Assembly: GCA_016286365.1 (NCBI GenBank) | Contig: JAEESN010000001.1 | Span: 248,001-312,000 of the forward strand | Source: Treponema sp. | GTDB taxonomy: Bacteria > Spirochaetota > Spirochaetia > Treponematales > Treponemataceae | DNA length: 64,000 nucleotides | Direction: 5' to 3' | Part shown: positions 2,234-17,291 of the stretch, one piece after another | How the letters are laid out: the number at the start of each line of letters is the position of its first letter | Numbering within the stretch: the stretch's first letter is position 1 | The notes under the pieces: generated by a model | Databases searched by the model: none | What the model saw: only the letters and a program-made list of their open reading frames with translations | Told to the model about the DNA's origin: nothing | Made by a program: the position numbers and the translations under genes

Positions 2234-3088
2234 TTACTCTATATCGCGTTTTAAATATAACTCCACAATTTTCTCTATCGACTTTGTGTTGATGGGGCAG
2301 GCTACAGTCTCTGTTGTGATAATCAGATTTTTCCCGGGGAAGAAACCATTTTTTGCGTAAAGGGATAGTTTTTGAACAGTTCGCTCGGAATATTCTGGAT
2401 TATCCATCATCCCAAAATGCTCCCAGAAAAACTCTTCTCGTGTTTTAAGATTAAGGCACATAAAATCTGGGTGTATTGTTATTTTCTGACCTCTCTCTGC
2501 AGTCAGCTCTAATGGGTACTCATATCTGTATGGGACGTGCATTCTTGCAAGCGTATCTGCAATTATGTTTTCTGATTTTGAACGCACCAGGTCTCCACGA
2601 GCAGTGGTATAGGTTAAAGTATCTTCAGAAAATGATTTTTTTTCGTAAGAAATCTCCTGCCATTGTTTTGCATAATCTTCATCAGATAATAATACCGGAT
2701 TGATTAATCCCTGCCGCAGGATATTTAGTTTTGAAAAGATTGATTCTGCCAGATGATTTTTTTTCTGTAGATTTACGTATTTCCCAAGCGAATGATTAAG
2801 GATTTTTATCTCTTCTCTGGCAGCATTGATTATTTTTTTGTCATAATCCTTCTGGGCAATTTGTTTTGCAAGAGATTTGTTGGCAGATATAATATATTTC
2901 CCCCTGGAACTCTCTTGATTATCCCTCAAGTAGTATTGAACAGAGCCATTACTCCTTGAAATACGCAGATTCCCCGAAGGTGCATTTTTCAAAGCCTTTT
3001 CTTTTAAAGCCAGCAGGTTTGAAAGTTCAAAAATCCGGGCTTTAATTACAGATGTAATCTTTTGTTTCGAAATAATTTCAGTTTTCAT
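2234..3088 (-). CDS. conserved protein with PD-(D/E)XK nuclease-like core
   Basis: About 284 aa. The N-terminal half is basic and helical (ARIFELSNLLALKEKALKNA). The C-terminal half has SKSENIIADTLARMHV, then YRYEYPLEL, HPDF and EFFWEHFGMMDNPEY. This order (helix Glu, then Pro-Asp, then Glu plus a basic or aromatic) is like a PD-(D/E)XK fold. Proteins of this type are common and uncharacterised in gut bacteria; nuclease activity is an inference. The start is not settled: ATG codons lie at 3097 and 3088 and no Shine-Dalgarno is visible. A -10 box TATAAT at 3098-3103 abuts the first ATG, so transcription probably starts after it and 3088 is preferred. Confidence 0.6.
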   Translation of the reverse strand: MKTEIISKQKITSVIKARIFELSNLLALKEKALKNAPSGNLRISRSNGSVQYYLRDNQESSRGKYIISANKSLAKQIAQKDYDKKIINAAREEIKILNHSLGKYVNLQKKNHLAESIFSKLNILRQGLINPVLLSDEDYAKQWQEISYEKKSFSEDTLTYTTARGDLVRSKSENIIADTLARMHVPYRYEYPLELTAERGQKITIHPDFMCLNLKTREEFFWEHFGMMDNPEYSERTVQKLSLYAKNGFFPGKNLIITTETVACPINTKSIEKIVELYLKRDIE

Positions 3089-3097
3089 ATTTTTCAT

Positions 3098-3125
3098 ATT
3101 ATATATATATGCAGAGTTTTGTGAA
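3098..3125 (-). promoter_or_regulatory. sigma70-type promoter of the nuclease-like gene
   Basis: On the minus strand TTCACA (3120-3125), a 16-bp spacer and TATAAT (3098-3103). The -10 ends nine bases before the ATG at 3088, which leaves almost no leader. Confidence 0.5.
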
Positions 3126-3218
3126 AAAAGGAGTAAAACACACAAAAAAATTAATTTTTTTGTGTGTTTTTTCAGATTTAGGTCGAAGGAATGGATTTTG
3201 ACAGGTGAGTGACATGGA

Positions 3219-3947
3219 TTTTACGGACGTAATGGTCAAAAACAAAGATTTCGTCCGTAAGAAGCTGTATTTTAACCACAATTTACAGCCCAAAACTAGT
3301 TGTGTCATCAATACTTTACGGACGAAACGCCTGAAAACGATGATTTCGTCCGTAAGAAGCAGTATTTTAACCATAATTTATTATCTGAAATTTGAAGTAA
3401 TATCTGAACTTTACGGACGAAATACTCCAAAATAATTGTTTCGTCCGTAAGAAGCAGTATTTTAATCACAATTTATTGCCAGAAACTTAAAGTAATATCT
3501 GAACTTTACGGACGAAACGCCTGAAAATAGAGTTTTCGTCCGTAAGAAGCTGTATTTTAACCACTATTTATTGCTAGAAATTTGAAGTAGAATCGGCACA
3601 ATACGGACGAAATGGTAAAAAACAAAGATTTCGTCCGTAAAAAACAATATCTTATCTCAAATTTAGAGCCCGAAACCAGTTGTAACATCAATACTTTACG
3701 GACGAAATGCCTGAACACAATAATTTCGTCCGTAAGAAGTAGTATTTTACTCACAATTTACAGCCCGAAACCAGTTGTAACATCAATACTTTACGGACGA
3801 AACGCCTGAAAACGATGATTTCGTCCGTAAGAAAAGAAATTACATCTAATGTTGGGAGCCTGGAATTGGATGAAACATCGGTACTTTACGGACGAAATGC
3901 CCCAAAAAACACTTTTCGTCCGTAGAGAATGAGGTTTCGTCCGTAAA
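3219..3947. repeat. 95-bp tandem repeat array with palindromic core, 8 units
   Basis: TTTACGGACGAAA or a close variant begins at 3220, 3315, 3410, 3505, 3600, 3695, 3790 and 3885, an exact 95-bp period. In each unit it is followed after about 16 bp by its inverse TTTCGTCCGTAA, giving a palindrome with 12-bp arms. The roughly 50-bp linkers are related but diverged (AAGAAGCAGTATTTTAACCA and similar). A last lone arm ends the array near 3947. No translated frame keeps a protein-like pattern; the frames that exist are copies of the repeat. The array fills most of 3160-4064; the remainder holds nothing I can name. Confidence 0.95.
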
Positions 3948-4064: not shown

Positions 4065-4487
4065 ATGGTAACAGGAATCGGTCACGCGGCATTCAATGTA
4101 AAGGATATGGAAAAAACTGTTGAGTTTTACGAGAAAACCCTGGGCTTTAAGAAAGCTTTTGATATTCCTCGGCCGGAAAACGGGGAGCCCTGGATTGTTT
4201 ATATGTATGCGGGTGGAAATCAGTTTATAGAATTATTCTACGGTGGCAAAAAGGAGAATCCTTACCGCGACGAAAATATCGGATTTTTTCATCTTTGTGT
4301 GGCAGTCGACGACATTCATGCGGCCTGGCAGAAAATCCTCGAAACAGGGGCGCCACAGGACGATCCTCCAAAGCAGGGCGCAGACTTCAACTGGCAGTGT
4401 TGGACCCACGATCCCGACGGCATAAAAATTGAGCTCATGCAGCTCGACGAACAAAGCCCCCAGATGAAGTTTATAAAATCCCGATAG
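4065..4487 (+). CDS. VOC superfamily (glyoxalase-like) protein
   Basis: A 140-aa single-module pair of beta-alpha-beta-beta-beta repeats of the vicinal oxygen chelate fold. The metal-ligand positions are occupied: His in GIGHAAFNV near the start, Glu in QFIELFYG, His in GFFHLCVAVDD and Glu in IKIELMQL. This is the pattern of lactoylglutathione lyase and related enzymes, although the reaction of this member cannot be fixed. The start ATG has ACAGGAGAAAATT before it. The gene stands alone between the repeat array and an opposing lipoprotein gene. Confidence 0.85.
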   Translation: MVTGIGHAAFNVKDMEKTVEFYEKTLGFKKAFDIPRPENGEPWIVYMYAGGNQFIELFYGGKKENPYRDENIGFFHLCVAVDDIHAAWQKILETGAPQDDPPKQGADFNWQCWTHDPDGIKIELMQLDEQSPQMKFIKSR

Positions 4488-9247: not shown

Positions 9248-10405
9248 TTATTTATACACAAAATTATATCCGAAAATAAAGCCTTTAACAGGTTCTTCTA
9301 TATAAATCCAAAGCCCGTTCACGCCATCTATGGTTTCGTAATCTTTTGTTTCGATTAAAGCAAGATAACCGTATTCATCTGGTATGATTTCATATTCACC
9401 AAGGAATTGTGATTTTGTAGTAGGTGCAGAATAAACTTTGAACTTATAATTTTTACTGTCATCATGGATGTACGATGAAATATCTATTGAAGGGAATTCA
9501 AGGCCGCAAACTCCTTCCTGTTTTTCAAGATATCCTCCAAAAACATAACCTTTTTCTGGATATGCAATTTTGTACCAGTGGCCTTCTATTTCATCTATTG
9601 CTTCGGTATCTGTGGTCTGTGCTTCGGCATATATCCATGTTCCCTGAGGAATGGTTGAAATCTCTTTTGCTGATTTTTTATTTGAAGAATCAAAAATTTT
9701 TAAAGGAGAACCGGCATCTGTTTTTACAACAAACCATGCACCATCCGTTATTTCTTCATAGGCCATTCCAAGTTCTAAATCTTCAACAGGAAGTCTTTCA
9801 AAAGCTTCCTTCTGGATGTATACGGATGAGCCTGGAACCCATTTATCTTCACTTAGTTTGAACCAGTACCAAACCTTGCTATCAAAAACCATAGGGAAGC
9901 TGCTTCTGGCAATCGCTACAAATTCACAACCCGGACCACCTATATCTTTATTTTTTGCTCCTAAATCATTTGGATTGTAAATTGGAGCATCTTTTTTGAA
10001 CATGATAAGATTTAAATCTTTGCGTTCGCCTTCATTCGGTATACAGTATCTTTCGTAAATATAATAATATTCTTGATTTTCATAAGCGGTGTATCGCCCG
10101 TCAGAAGATAAAAGTTGCGAATACCAGTTTTCTATTTTTATTTTATGCCCGGAAGCGATATCAAGTTCATCGGGTCTTCCGTCTTTACCGGGAATAATTC
10201 CTGAAAGTGTGTCCTGATGTTCATAATTATACAAAAATTGAGAGTCCTGATTATCTTCCTTAATTTCCGTAGTTGTTTCTGCCGGAATATTTTCTTTTTC
10301 AATAGTCTCTGTAGAAATAGTTTCAGGATCTTTTTTCTGTTTATTACATGATGTAACAGCCAGAACAACAAATAAAATCAGAGTGGTTAAAAAGTACTTT
10401 TTCAT
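9248..10405 (-). CDS. SH3-domain lipoprotein
   Basis: About 385 aa from the ATG at 10405, preceded by AAGAGGAAAA; the frame opens earlier but without a ribosome site. A signal peptide ends in a lipobox VLAVTSC. The C-terminal half contains bacterial SH3-like units: KSAKEISTIPQGTWIYAE through HWYKIAYPEKGYVFGGY, then a second ending WIYIEEPVKGFIFGYN. The G-x-W-x-K...G-W/Y-V-F-G-G-Y pattern is typical of SH3b domains that bind cell-wall material. It resembles three proteins inside the integron (20780, 27418, 30093), suggesting family exchange between array and chromosome. Confidence 0.75.
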   Translation of the reverse strand: MKKYFLTTLILFVVLAVTSCNKQKKDPETISTETIEKENIPAETTTEIKEDNQDSQFLYNYEHQDTLSGIIPGKDGRPDELDIASGHKIKIENWYSQLLSSDGRYTAYENQEYYYIYERYCIPNEGERKDLNLIMFKKDAPIYNPNDLGAKNKDIGGPGCEFVAIARSSFPMVFDSKVWYWFKLSEDKWVPGSSVYIQKEAFERLPVEDLELGMAYEEITDGAWFVVKTDAGSPLKIFDSSNKKSAKEISTIPQGTWIYAEAQTTDTEAIDEIEGHWYKIAYPEKGYVFGGYLEKQEGVCGLEFPSIDISSYIHDDSKNYKFKVYSAPTTKSQFLGEYEIIPDEYGYLALIETKDYETIDGVNGLWIYIEEPVKGFIFGYNFVYK

Positions 10406-10477
10406 TTTTCCTCTTATTATTATACTACATTTTTTCAAAAAAAGTATTAAACATGAAGCTTAATTACAAATAATTAT

Positions 10478-11473
10478 TTAATCACTTAACACCGCATCTA
10501 TAAGATGCATTGTATATGTCTGGGTTGTAATTCCGTCAAATATGACTTTATTGTTTTTAATATCAAATACTTTATAACAGACCGTCCAGTTATAGCCGAA
10601 AAGACCATTGCGGATAGAATCCTTAAACGGGCTGATACAAAGCGGAACTAAGAAATAATCATCGGATAAAAGAATCAGAGGACCTGCCATTGCTTCATAC
10701 CTTTGCTTGAAAGAACAAGTAACTTCTTCAGAAGTAGTCAAATCAAATATAACGCAGCTTTTTTCGTCACGTTCCCAGTATGTTACATTTCCAGTTTTAA
10801 TAACTTTAGAACCTTCACGGATTATTTTGTTGTTATACCTTGCGCCAGGATAAGACCATCCTAACTGAATCTTATTTACCTGAACTTGTCCTGTTGAACG
10901 ATTAAGTACATAATATCCGGAATCTCCAACAAATCCCCCATCTACATAAAAATAGATGAAATTATCGTCGGCATGTAAATCAGTAATGTATCTGTGCTCC
11001 CAGCCATATTCAGGGCTTTTACGGAGATCTTCCAGTTCATATAGTTTTTTTATCTGTTTTGTTCTTGAATCATATTCATAGAGAATGTGAGGTTCAGGAC
11101 TTTTTTCACAACGTTCACACCAGAAAAATGTATTTTCCGTAAAAGCTCTGAAGCTATATATTTCCTGCTCAAACTCAAATAAAACAGTTTCTTTGTTAGT
11201 GATATAATTAAGTCTGATTACTCGATACAGGTTGTCTATTTGTTCTGCAAATAAAACAGAATCTTTGTTGTTTCTGTCAAATCTTATTTCCAAAATTTTT
11301 CTATCGGTTAAGCACTTCAAATCAGAAAGTAATTCTTCCCCTTTGTAAATTGAATAATTGCTTTTTTTGAATAAATAAATAATAGAAAAATTCTTTACAT
11401 CTTTTTTTCCGCTGGCAAATGAGATATTAATTAATGAAGTGAATAAAAGTAAAATACAAATTATTTTTTTCAT
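10478..11473 (-). CDS. secreted protein of unknown function
   Basis: 331 aa beginning MKKIICILLLFTSLINISFA, a signal peptide ending at SFASG. The mature part has many beta-prone segments with recurring phrases such as HILYEYDSRTKQIKKLYEL and YYVLNRSTGQVQV, which fits a beta-propeller-like repeat protein, though the repeats are too diverged to call. An AGAAAG stretch precedes the ATG. It is the first gene of the run continuing to 7540. The 190 bp upstream (11474-11662) is AT-rich and holds nothing I can name. Confidence 0.55.
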   Translation of the reverse strand: MKKIICILLLFTSLINISFASGKKDVKNFSIIYLFKKSNYSIYKGEELLSDLKCLTDRKILEIRFDRNNKDSVLFAEQIDNLYRVIRLNYITNKETVLFEFEQEIYSFRAFTENTFFWCERCEKSPEPHILYEYDSRTKQIKKLYELEDLRKSPEYGWEHRYITDLHADDNFIYFYVDGGFVGDSGYYVLNRSTGQVQVNKIQLGWSYPGARYNNKIIREGSKVIKTGNVTYWERDEKSCVIFDLTTSEEVTCSFKQRYEAMAGPLILLSDDYFLVPLCISPFKDSIRNGLFGYNWTVCYKVFDIKNNKVIFDGITTQTYTMHLIDAVLSD

Positions 11474-15489: not shown

Positions 15490-15804
15490 TCATTTATCCT
15501 CAAATAAGATTCTTACAAAATCTCGTTTTGAATACATTATTCTTATTACTCTTACAATATTACCATCAATTCTATAAAAGATTGAATAATTATTTACCAG
15601 GACAAATTTATAGTCAGTAGGGAAGGGGACATATCTTTCTACGGGAATACCATCTTCTGCAAGGGTAGATAAGTTTTCATATGTTTCGACAATATTTAAA
15701 ACAGTATTATGTGCTGCAATTGGATTTTGAAGTTCATTTTCTATGTAATTTTTTATTTCGAGTAAATCTTTTGCAGCTTGAGGAGTAACCTTTACCTCAA
15801 ACAT
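15490..15804 (-). CDS. RelE/ParE family toxin
   Basis: 104 aa, full length for the family. It has MFEVKVTPQAAKDLLEIKNY, ERYVPFPTDYKFVLVNNYSI and FYRIDGNIVRVIRIMYSKRDF, the usual RelE/ParE strand pattern ending in a basic and aromatic motif. Its ATG overlaps the antitoxin stop (TAATG), giving antitoxin-first coupled expression. The target (ribosome-bound mRNA or gyrase) cannot be decided from sequence. Confidence 0.85.
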   Translation of the reverse strand: MFEVKVTPQAAKDLLEIKNYIENELQNPIAAHNTVLNIVETYENLSTLAEDGIPVERYVPFPTDYKFVLVNNYSIFYRIDGNIVRVIRIMYSKRDFVRILFEDK

Positions 15805-16055
15805 TAAAGACCTACCATTCTTCTAACATCAGCAGGATCCAACCAGCCATTCTTTGCAGCTGAATCTTCTCCTTTTTTTAATTCTGCAAAAAGGGTTTTT
15901 GTGGCTGTTAATCTTTCGTAATCTCTAATGGTAATAACAGCATAAGTGCCTCTTCCGTTTTTTGTAAGAAAAACAGGAGATTCATCTGCGACATCCTGTA
16001 ATACTTCATTGTAATTACGCAAATCAGAAACAGGTTTTATTGCTATCATAGGCAC
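15804..16055 (-). CDS. Phd/YefM family antitoxin
   Basis: 83 aa. The N-terminal MPMIAIKPVSDLRNY and FLTKNGRGTYAVITIRDYE match the DNA-binding half of Phd/YefM antitoxins; the C-terminal tail would wrap the toxin. It has a GAGGTG ribosome site. Its promoter contains a palindrome (16064-16081) that is the likely autoregulatory operator. Confidence 0.85.
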   Translation of the reverse strand: MPMIAIKPVSDLRNYNEVLQDVADESPVFLTKNGRGTYAVITIRDYERLTATKTLFAELKKGEDSAAKNGWLDPADVRRMVGL

Positions 16056-16063
16056 CTCGAATC

Positions 16064-16113
16064 TTCGTAATATTTTACGAAATAATTATCTTAAGATTTT
16101 TCTGAGTTGTCAA
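16064..16113 (-). promoter_or_regulatory. toxin-antitoxin promoter with palindromic operator
   Basis: TTGACA (16108-16113), 17-bp spacer, GATAAT (16085-16090). Just downstream lies TTCGTAA-tatt-TTACGAA (16064-16081), at the expected transcription start, as in autoregulated Phd/YefM operons. The -35 lies inside the end of the acetyltransferase gene. Confidence 0.7.
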
Positions 16114-16699
16114 GATTAATATTTTCATCTATCGAGCTTGATTTGATGGATGATGATTCTATCCAGATATACACACGCTCTTCAGTTTTTTCTGTAATTA
16201 CACCTCCATTTGCAAGTGCAACTTTTTGGGATGCAATATTATCTGAGTGTATTGTTATAAGAACTTTTTCCAAACCAATTTTTTTTGCTTCAATTAACAA
16301 CAATCTTAAGAGTTCTTTGCCATAACCCTTTCCACGATATTGAGGAGCAATTCCATAACCGATATGACCACCTGCATTACTCAAAGCTTCGGTAAGAAAA
16401 TGTCTCAGATTTCCAAATCCGACAGGAAAAGTATCGGCATAAAGCCAATAAGTTGTAGAAGGAACCTTCCAGCCATCCACAAGACATGTTTGTTCTGATT
16501 CTTTCTGTTTTGCTGCAAGCCAGGTTTTAAAATCCTCGTATGAAAGACCATTTGCTTTATTAACAAGTCCATTTTCATCTTTTGGCATTGACTGTAACAT
16601 GTTATAGATATCGTGGCCATCATCAGCGGATAGTTTTTTTAAGCGTAAGTTTACTTTGTCAGGCTTCGTATTAATTAGGCTTACAGTGTTACACTCCAT
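16091..16699 (-). CDS. GNAT family acetyltransferase
   Basis: 202 aa. The acetyl-CoA loop is IGYGIAPQYRGKGYGKELLR, with a preceding PVGFGNLRHFL strand and a following VLITIHSDNIASQKVALANGG, the usual C-terminal GNAT arrangement (RimJ/RimL-like). The substrate is unknown. Its ATG overlaps the stop of the kinase-like gene by 11 bp, so the two are coupled. Confidence 0.85.
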   Translation of the reverse strand: MECNTVSLINTKPDKVNLRLKKLSADDGHDIYNMLQSMPKDENGLVNKANGLSYEDFKTWLAAKQKESEQTCLVDGWKVPSTTYWLYADTFPVGFGNLRHFLTEALSNAGGHIGYGIAPQYRGKGYGKELLRLLLIEAKKIGLEKVLITIHSDNIASQKVALANGGVITEKTEERVYIWIESSSIKSSSIDENINLDNSEKS

Positions 16700-17291
16700 A
16701 TCGATATTCCTTTTCTTCTTTCTGATTTGCTTTGAGATTGTATTTTCCTATTACGATATCTGCAACTTCATCTGGAGAAAGATTTGTATTGTCTATTTTC
16801 AGATGATTTTCAAAAAGAATTTCTCCTTCTTCTGTATTTAGTCTGTGTCGTTGAGAATCCTTTAAGAGATTTTCTTCGCTCCATTTGGTATCTTTTTTTG
16901 AAGCCTTTCTTTCCATACGATGAGGAGTAAGATTTCTTTTAAGGCGTGTATCTAAATCTGCGCTTAGTTCAACGAAATAAAAGTTTCCACCCGAAGCTTT
17001 AAATTGATGCTCCAAAGTTTTGAGATAATTAATTTCTTCTTCTTTATCAAAAGCGGCAACATAAGTAAAAAGCAAATCTACATTATGTTTTACGGCAAGT
17101 TCAAATGCCTTTTCTCTGAAGATTGAATTGAGCTCTCTTTGCGCCGGTGTATCAAATCCAAAAATCCTGTCTGAAACTTCAATACTGTCATGATTCATCA
17201 TCAGGTTGTATTTCAGTTTATCTCTCAAACTTTCTGCGACAGTCATTTTTCCAACTGCTTGTGGTCCGCATACTACAATTAAATTTGCCAT
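16689..17291 (-). CDS. P-loop kinase-like protein
   Basis: 200 aa. It opens MANLIVVCGPQAVGKMTVAE, a Walker A loop (G-P-Q-A-V-G-K-M) typical of shikimate/gluconate-kinase-like and AAA_33 proteins. FVELSADLDTRLKRNLT and the basic HRMERKASKKDTKW form the lid-like region. The phosphate acceptor is unknown. It is the first gene beyond the last attC of the array and begins with the same 5' stem-loop as the cassettes, so it is probably the final cassette, with its own attC lost. Confidence 0.75.
   Translation of the reverse strand: MANLIVVCGPQAVGKMTVAESLRDKLKYNLMMNHDSIEVSDRIFGFDTPAQRELNSIFREKAFELAVKHNVDLLFTYVAAFDKEEEINYLKTLEHQFKASGGNFYFVELSADLDTRLKRNLTPHRMERKASKKDTKWSEENLLKDSQRHRLNTEEGEILFENHLKIDNTNLSPDEVADIVIGKYNLKANQKEEKEYRYGV

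Follow-up and report, generated by a model that had tools for sequence, protein, structure and literature searches.

The window, by which we mean the whole 64,000-nucleotide stretch of a Treponema sp. contig that was analysed, contains at 3221-3946 an array of eight palindromes, each 40 bp long and composed of a 12-bp arm, a 16-bp core, and a second 12-bp arm. The arms are TTACGGACGAAA and TTTCGTCCGTAA, with a single arm substitution in each of units 1, 5, and 8. An exact 95-bp tandem array of palindromes with 12-bp arms had been the starting point of the original prediction, and it is borne out throughout the array, as all seven intervals between unit starts are 95 bp and all eight units have the 12+16+12 arrangement. 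The 95-bp period was also recovered by TRF, and the linkers are similar inside the array (285-nt windows are 64-78% identical at 95-bp shifts). The features at the locus are listed below.

2234..3097, minus strand: putative Vsr/EDxHD-like PD-(D/E)XK nuclease, 287 aa counted from the ATG at 3097, with the frame open as far as an alternative TTG start at 3145
3098..3125, minus strand: sigma-70-like promoter match, TTCACA-16-TATAAT, 11/12, directly before the nuclease gene; a consensus match only
3135..3170, no strand: perfect 18-bp AT-rich inverted repeat, loop-free, terminator-like on the minus strand, between the array and the nuclease gene
3221..3260, no strand: palindrome unit 1, 5' arm TTACGGACGTAA
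3316..3355, no strand: palindrome unit 2
3411..3450, no strand: palindrome unit 3
3506..3545, no strand: palindrome unit 4
3601..3640, no strand: palindrome unit 5, 5' arm ATACGGACGAAA
3696..3735, no strand: palindrome unit 6
3791..3830, no strand: palindrome unit 7
3886..3925, no strand: palindrome unit 8, 3' arm TTTCGTCCGTAG
3935..3946, no strand: additional 3' half-site TTTCGTCCGTAA beyond unit 8

By the consensus used for the promoter match, six promoter-type sites were found when 4.1 were expected from shuffles. An inverted repeat of the type at 3135-3170 was not generally present at the other loci. On its other side, the array adjoins a glyoxalase-family gene (4065-4487), whose protein is 85-87% identical to the products of Lachnospiraceae- and Treponemataceae-labelled MAG genes; this identity to both groups suggests exchange between phyla.

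A search for the palindrome elsewhere, as had been proposed, found 18 matches to the exact pattern in the 2.68-Mb host genome (G000) and none to a reversed control. Of the 41 exact half-sites in this genome, 40 lie within four same-arm arrays, namely those at C29:15087 (five units, 95 bp), C29:38744 (five units, 95-96 bp), C31 (the window array, eight units, 95 bp), and C33:112377 (three units at 84 bp, which is 95 - 11). The exact arm-pair pattern of the window array is restricted to 2 of the 274 family genomes; BLASTN of the array against 59 relatives gave a single match outside the host genome, which we attribute to chance, and viral contigs contained no match to the exact pattern. Two other readings of the repeats were considered and rejected. 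The linkers are alike within the array, as opposed to unique spacers, and the gene that recurs beside the arrays encodes a nuclease other than Cas, so the array is not a CRISPR. Peptide-coding units (FTDE...FVRK) were dismissed because the frame is lost in other arm types, for example in the TTCCCGACTAAA array (judged by eye), and because a 95-bp period is not divisible by 3.

The window array is one of a large family, mostly from Treponemataceae, in which the arms differ from relative to relative and the 40-bp architecture is kept. When 31 units from seven arrays were compared, 96.5% of arm cells paired, 6 of the 12 pairs had changed on both sides, and the pairing was lost on slides of one to three columns. 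The original prediction had named decayed palindromes and random copy number in relatives as grounds for its refutation; decayed palindromes were not seen in the relatives' arrays, and copy number does vary. A covariance model of the unit gave matches at E ≤ 0.1 in 109 of the 274 family genomes, many of the weaker of which may be chance, and its strong matches were mostly clustered. When nuclease-linked arrays were averaged, high complementarity was confined to positions ∼8.5-19.5 bp from the centre in the 42 arrays of even length and 8-19 bp in the 24 of odd length, with values of mostly 0.2-0.4 in the core and flanks; the 8-20-bp range of the palindrome finder sets this arm position partly by construction, which is not so for the drop in the core and flanks.

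These palindromes are of near-constant size, and their centres lie whole helical turns apart. Distances between neighbours, collected from 87 deduplicated arrays with a finder based on complementarity alone, peak at 53, 63-64, 74, 84-85, 95, and 105-106 bp (5-10 helical turns), with multiples beyond. An open scan of periods from 6 to 20 bp gave a best period of 10.53 bp (R 0.88, phase 0.0 bp, 247 distances), and R never rose above 0.29 in 500 jittered null sets. Counting each distance once per array, 138 of 157 fall within 1.5 bp of a whole turn, against 44.6 expected. The deduplication dropped only lists with identical spacings and arms, and because some arrays had been fetched twice we also took a single distance per arm cluster, a stricter test in which the 12 clusters gave a median R of 0.85 (p about 2e-4). 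In rumen Lachnospiraceae-type genomes, all 11 distances, from five loci, fit the same helical period. Thus, the earlier proposal that 95 bp is about nine helical turns and places the palindromes on the same side of the DNA holds far beyond the window array. Single arrays combine different numbers of turns (74/84/74, 53/95/64, or 84/106), which shows that an array is not one duplicated unit.

The original prediction found no obvious partner among the adjacent genes. This view has to be revised, as the gene at 2234-3097 on the minus strand, whose start is separated from the array by ∼120 bp, is a member of a nuclease family whose genes adjoin such arrays in many genomes. When the open reading frames near 41 array loci were clustered, one protein family, of which the window gene is a member, was found no farther than 259 bp from the array at 10 of these loci. 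By coordinates, the array is upstream of the nuclease gene in 9 of the 10; at L186 it is downstream. The family has no match above noise in Pfam, NCBIfam, or PHROG. Its members are predicted to have an N-terminal half made up of a helix, a beta-hairpin, and a long helix, modelled with confidence (pLDDT 91.6), followed by a C-terminal nuclease domain. In the AlphaFold model, residues 157-287 match I-Bth0305I, Bax1, Vsr, and VRR_NUC with Z scores of 6.3-8.2; a Foldseek search by itself returned nothing at E ≤ 0.001. The catalytic-type residues Glu-176, Asp-211, Glu-226, His-227, and Asp-232 are invariant in 10 of 10 members and stand in an order that fits the Glu, Asp, His, and Asp of I-Bth0305I, a comparison of order alone. 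For the N-terminal fold, Foldseek returned no match at E ≤ 0.001 and a second structural look returned generic helical or coiled-coil matches (Z ≤ 9.5), which do not establish a DNA-binding fold; the matches to Rad50 and TasH, which are of this generic coiled-coil kind, we do not read as kinship. A subset of the nucleases matches the family profile in two pieces that are split near residue 202, in frames of 322-359 aa (G224:C33:115590-116627, G238:C20:16968, G256:C244:36, G258:C222:32239, and others), where a segment has perhaps been inserted in the nuclease domain.

Members of the family occur in 58 of the 274 family genomes, with a maximum of 12 copies per genome, and in 19 of 32 genomes reached via Lachnospiraceae-type loci (one being G287 again). 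Among 392 genomes drawn across the phylum, 20 contain matches, some of which are the domain alone within proteins of 840-1305 aa. Phage records contain three matches, one covering 84% of the query, and the nine plasmid and eight viral-contig matches are to the C-terminal domain only, which in the plasmids stands at the end of helicase-like proteins.

The arrays lie upstream of the nuclease family. We assembled 90 nuclease loci, 30 given by the family search and 60 chosen mainly from the top of the search list, and analysed 88 of them (L262 and L282 were left out), several of which are short frames. Upstream sequence of 300 bp or more was available for 82 nuclease genes. A palindrome lies in the 500 bp before the gene in 72 of them, compared with 9.75 in shuffles, and 51 have at least two like-armed palindromes there, compared with 0.05 in dinucleotide shuffles. 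In the downstream control, any palindrome was found for 23 of 88 genes. Ten of the 82 upstream regions have no palindrome, and three of the counted upstream cases (L278-L280) fall outside the shared module described below. In a further comparison, the nuclease is present in 24 of 27 genomes with a palindrome match at E 1e-6 or better and in 34 of the 247 others (Fisher p 1e-15, with the cut-off picked post hoc and the counts made by eye). At two Lachnospiraceae-type loci (L296 and L297), Treponema-like palindromes, GTACGGACTAAT, lie downstream of the nuclease gene.

The position of the array upstream of the nuclease gene suggests autoregulation. It could also mean that the array is an operator and nothing more, in which case the nuclease or another regulator would repress the gene via phased upstream operators, the module would move passively by recombination, and orphan arrays would be leftovers of lost modules or stray copies. 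The placement before the gene start, with the nearest palindrome centre 40-60 bp from the start in 14 of 74 cases, agrees with such a role, but the window array is upstream of the predicted promoter and does not overlap it. Together with the behaviour of the orphan arrays considered below, this leads us to regard an operator-only function as rather unlikely.

Type III toxin-antitoxin systems likewise have a repeat array immediately before a nuclease gene, and in the window a terminator-like hairpin lies between the two, so the array might instead be transcribed into hairpins that bind the nuclease. However, helical phasing has no role in RNA, and the array had no match above threshold in Rfam (eight were sub-threshold). 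An indirect sequence test likewise showed no sign of the fixed strand relative to the toxin gene that marks type III systems: the A/T asymmetry of the core is random relative to the nuclease gene (27 versus 28 of 57). Phasing and free core orientation point to DNA rather than RNA, and we consider an RNA-level system highly improbable.

The arms of the palindromes track the nuclease N terminus and not the catalytic domain. In partial Mantel tests with 55 nucleases, arm distance correlated with the N terminus after removal of the C terminus (r 0.37, reached by 0 of 1000 permutations), whereas the correlation with the C terminus was absent (r 0.006, 457 of 1000 permutations). The best-correlating segments, by a small margin, were those of residues 43-64, the beta-hairpin. 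The host genome itself has two nucleases, the one in the window and another at C5:62531, which is accompanied by an array of its own arm type, TTACATAAATTT, with 95-bp spacing. Near 8802 on C29 lies an orphan array with the arms of this second nuclease and 84-bp spacing. More generally, orphan arrays tend to match the arm type of the resident nuclease. For the 30 usable of 35 orphan arrays, the arm match to nuclease arrays of the same genome averaged 10.5 of 12 positions, a value reached in 0 of 2000 label permutations; 21 of the 30 match at 10 of 12 or better and 9 fall below, in a set for which the nucleases were sampled incompletely.

These data bear on the suggestion that the array is bound by a dimeric protein at a partition, nucleoid, or regulatory site. 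Same-face palindromes that are retained despite changed arms fit binding by a dimer well. The partition or nucleoid part of the suggestion fares poorly, as the arrays are multicopy and dispersed, vary in their arms within one genome, and do not occur at the empty sites of relatives. Constant palindrome size, phasing, and four same-arm arrays in one chromosome are what a core chromosome site might look like, but such a site would account neither for the nuclease association and arm co-variation nor for two arm types in one genome, each with its own nuclease, and an exact arm pair found in just 2 of 274 family genomes is unlike one. We give a partition, nucleoid, or other core site almost no weight.

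Modules and orphan arrays are found at otherwise unrelated or empty loci. Two modules that are 83.9% identical (L252 and L257) are shared from -458 to 3 bp beyond the stop codon and have unrelated flanks, and two others (L279 and L280, 93.5% identical) are shared from -325 to +5/6. In three relatives, the site of an orphan array of G106 lacks the array, and the interval between the conserved genes differs by 337 bp; the C33 array of the host genome is missing in G003 and G238, in which the two flanking genes adjoin; and an insertion in G287, next to a duplicated SAP gene end, makes a difference of exactly 1472 bp from many relatives. No clean target-site duplication was found. The small orphan arrays are missing at empty sites without any gene trace, and the 35 orphan arrays lie between tandem (16), convergent (7), and divergent (5) genes, or in unassigned orientation (7), much as expected for random intergenic placement. 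Neither this lack of preference for gene upstream regions nor the absence of gene traces is expected of an array that is only an operator. From the orphan arrays and the empty sites, it would seem that arrays are spread by the nuclease, either directly or through repair of its cuts.

The SAP gene itself, SAP_new25, was rejected as a partner of the arrays, because two arrays abut it but few of the loci fetched from 82 SAP-matching genomes show arrays nearby; it is probably an insertion site. Isolated copies of its last 40-60 codons occur at 390-505 and 1870-1985 of a G287 locus (L073), where they flank a palindrome array, and at G001:C2:470270, G232:C70:17325, G032:C68:3, and G091:C1:3052351, so that this end of the gene appears to be a hot spot for recombination or insertion. 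At 6181-6921 of L070 (C33 of the host genome), the first palindrome of an orphan array continues the reading frame of a SAP-domain protein as a C-terminal extension, and the protein of relatives ends at about this point. Another G287 locus (L074) contains a PstB-like ABC ATPase frame with an in-frame low-complexity insertion (NGGDRGNGRNG-like, 15691-16743) and a WYL regulator frame with a repetitive Ala/Thr/Ser-rich stretch (9931-11232).

A defence or addiction module was weighed as well, in which the array would keep the nuclease inactive on the chromosome and the nuclease would attack incoming DNA or act as a toxin once the array is lost. The C-terminal ∼130 residues resemble PDC-S68, a PADLOC candidate defence protein (E 2e-30), and the occurrence of this domain at the end of plasmid helicase-like proteins is compatible with defence, as is strong purifying selection (median dN/dS of 0.14 in 46 pairs), which would also fit a host function. 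However, PDC-S68 shares the nuclease domain only, being ∼1200 aa long, whereas the window nuclease is a stand-alone protein of 287 aa with another N terminus; no other defence genes recur beside the arrays among the frames near 41 array loci; and defence alone does not explain orphan arrays in other loci. We therefore judge this function improbable.

Based on the results above, we think it likely that the window array is the DNA-binding array of the adjoining nuclease and that the two form one predicted mobile module. The reading that best fits the sequence data is that of a predicted mobile nuclease with its own phased palindromes, in double-stranded form, as binding sites, since same-face phasing, free core orientation, and co-variation of the arms with the N terminus together point to double-stranded DNA bound by a dimer. 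In the mechanism that we propose, a nuclease dimer held by the long coiled-coil helix would bind each palindrome as double-stranded DNA, with each 12-bp arm read by one N-terminal beta-hairpin across the 16-bp core. The phasing would set several dimers on one face and so allow one assembled complex, which may repress the nuclease gene, gather array copies, or both. Repair after cuts made by the nuclease would then carry arrays as well as the gene into further intergenic positions.

A search of the open-access literature, whose scope mostly excluded subscription journals and preprints, found no account of arrays like these paired with a nuclease, and this module of rumen bacteria is apparently undescribed. 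With it, a class of repeats gains a partner, a code-like correspondence between arm and protein, and a mobile context. The family provides dozens of natural pairs of nuclease and recognition site (55 analysed here) from which site choice by a small domain might be learned, as well as a clean example of selection writing the helical repeat of DNA, 10.53 bp, into genomes. How a nuclease coexists with many copies of its own site becomes testable as well.

Among known proteins, Vsr, Bax1, and VRR_NUC share the broad fold predicted for the nuclease domain (Z 6.5, 7.8, and 6.3, respectively). These nucleases have repair roles or are domains of other proteins, and to our knowledge none has palindrome arrays. 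The model also resembles the EDxHD homing endonuclease I-Bth0305I in its Vsr-like nuclease fold (92 aligned residues, Z 8.2, rmsd 3.1). A review describes I-Bth0305I as a multidomain enzyme whose target, on which it dimerises, spans almost 60 bp (PMC3943268). The nuclease described here differs in having no intron, an array of its own type of palindrome beside the gene, and a different N-terminal half, and cleavage and homing by it are putative. Should the module turn out to move by ordinary homing, it would count as a variation on a known kind of element.

By its sequence features, the module would work most like RAYT/REP, in which a Y1 tyrosine transposase is associated with extragenic palindromes, yet it lacks both of the properties that define that system. 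As described in PMC3733652, REP palindromes are short stem-loops with an unpaired GTAG or CGTC tag, those of the CGTC class having stems of 8-9 bp and loops of 4-5. No tag of this kind common to the arm types was found in the arrays examined, and the partner nuclease has no Y1 match; membership was rejected. The sole Y1 gene of the host genome (C29:76646-76969, L125) is RAYT-like and lies ∼37 kb from the nearest array of the window-array kind; it adjoins different palindromes of its own, GACAAGGGGGACA... The two systems share an enzyme gene with cognate intergenic palindromes, several types per genome, and scattered noncoding copies, and they differ in that the array module has an enzyme of another superfamily, 12-bp arms with a 16-bp core, and helix-locked phasing. 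We tentatively put forward, at somewhat less than even confidence, a candidate new class of mobile element, common to rumen Treponema and Lachnospiraceae, in which nuclease dimers would polymerise on phased palindromes and the array would serve the nuclease both as its switch and as the donor copied to new intergenic sites, a double-stranded DNA counterpart of RAYT/REP that diversifies arm by arm with its recognition domain.
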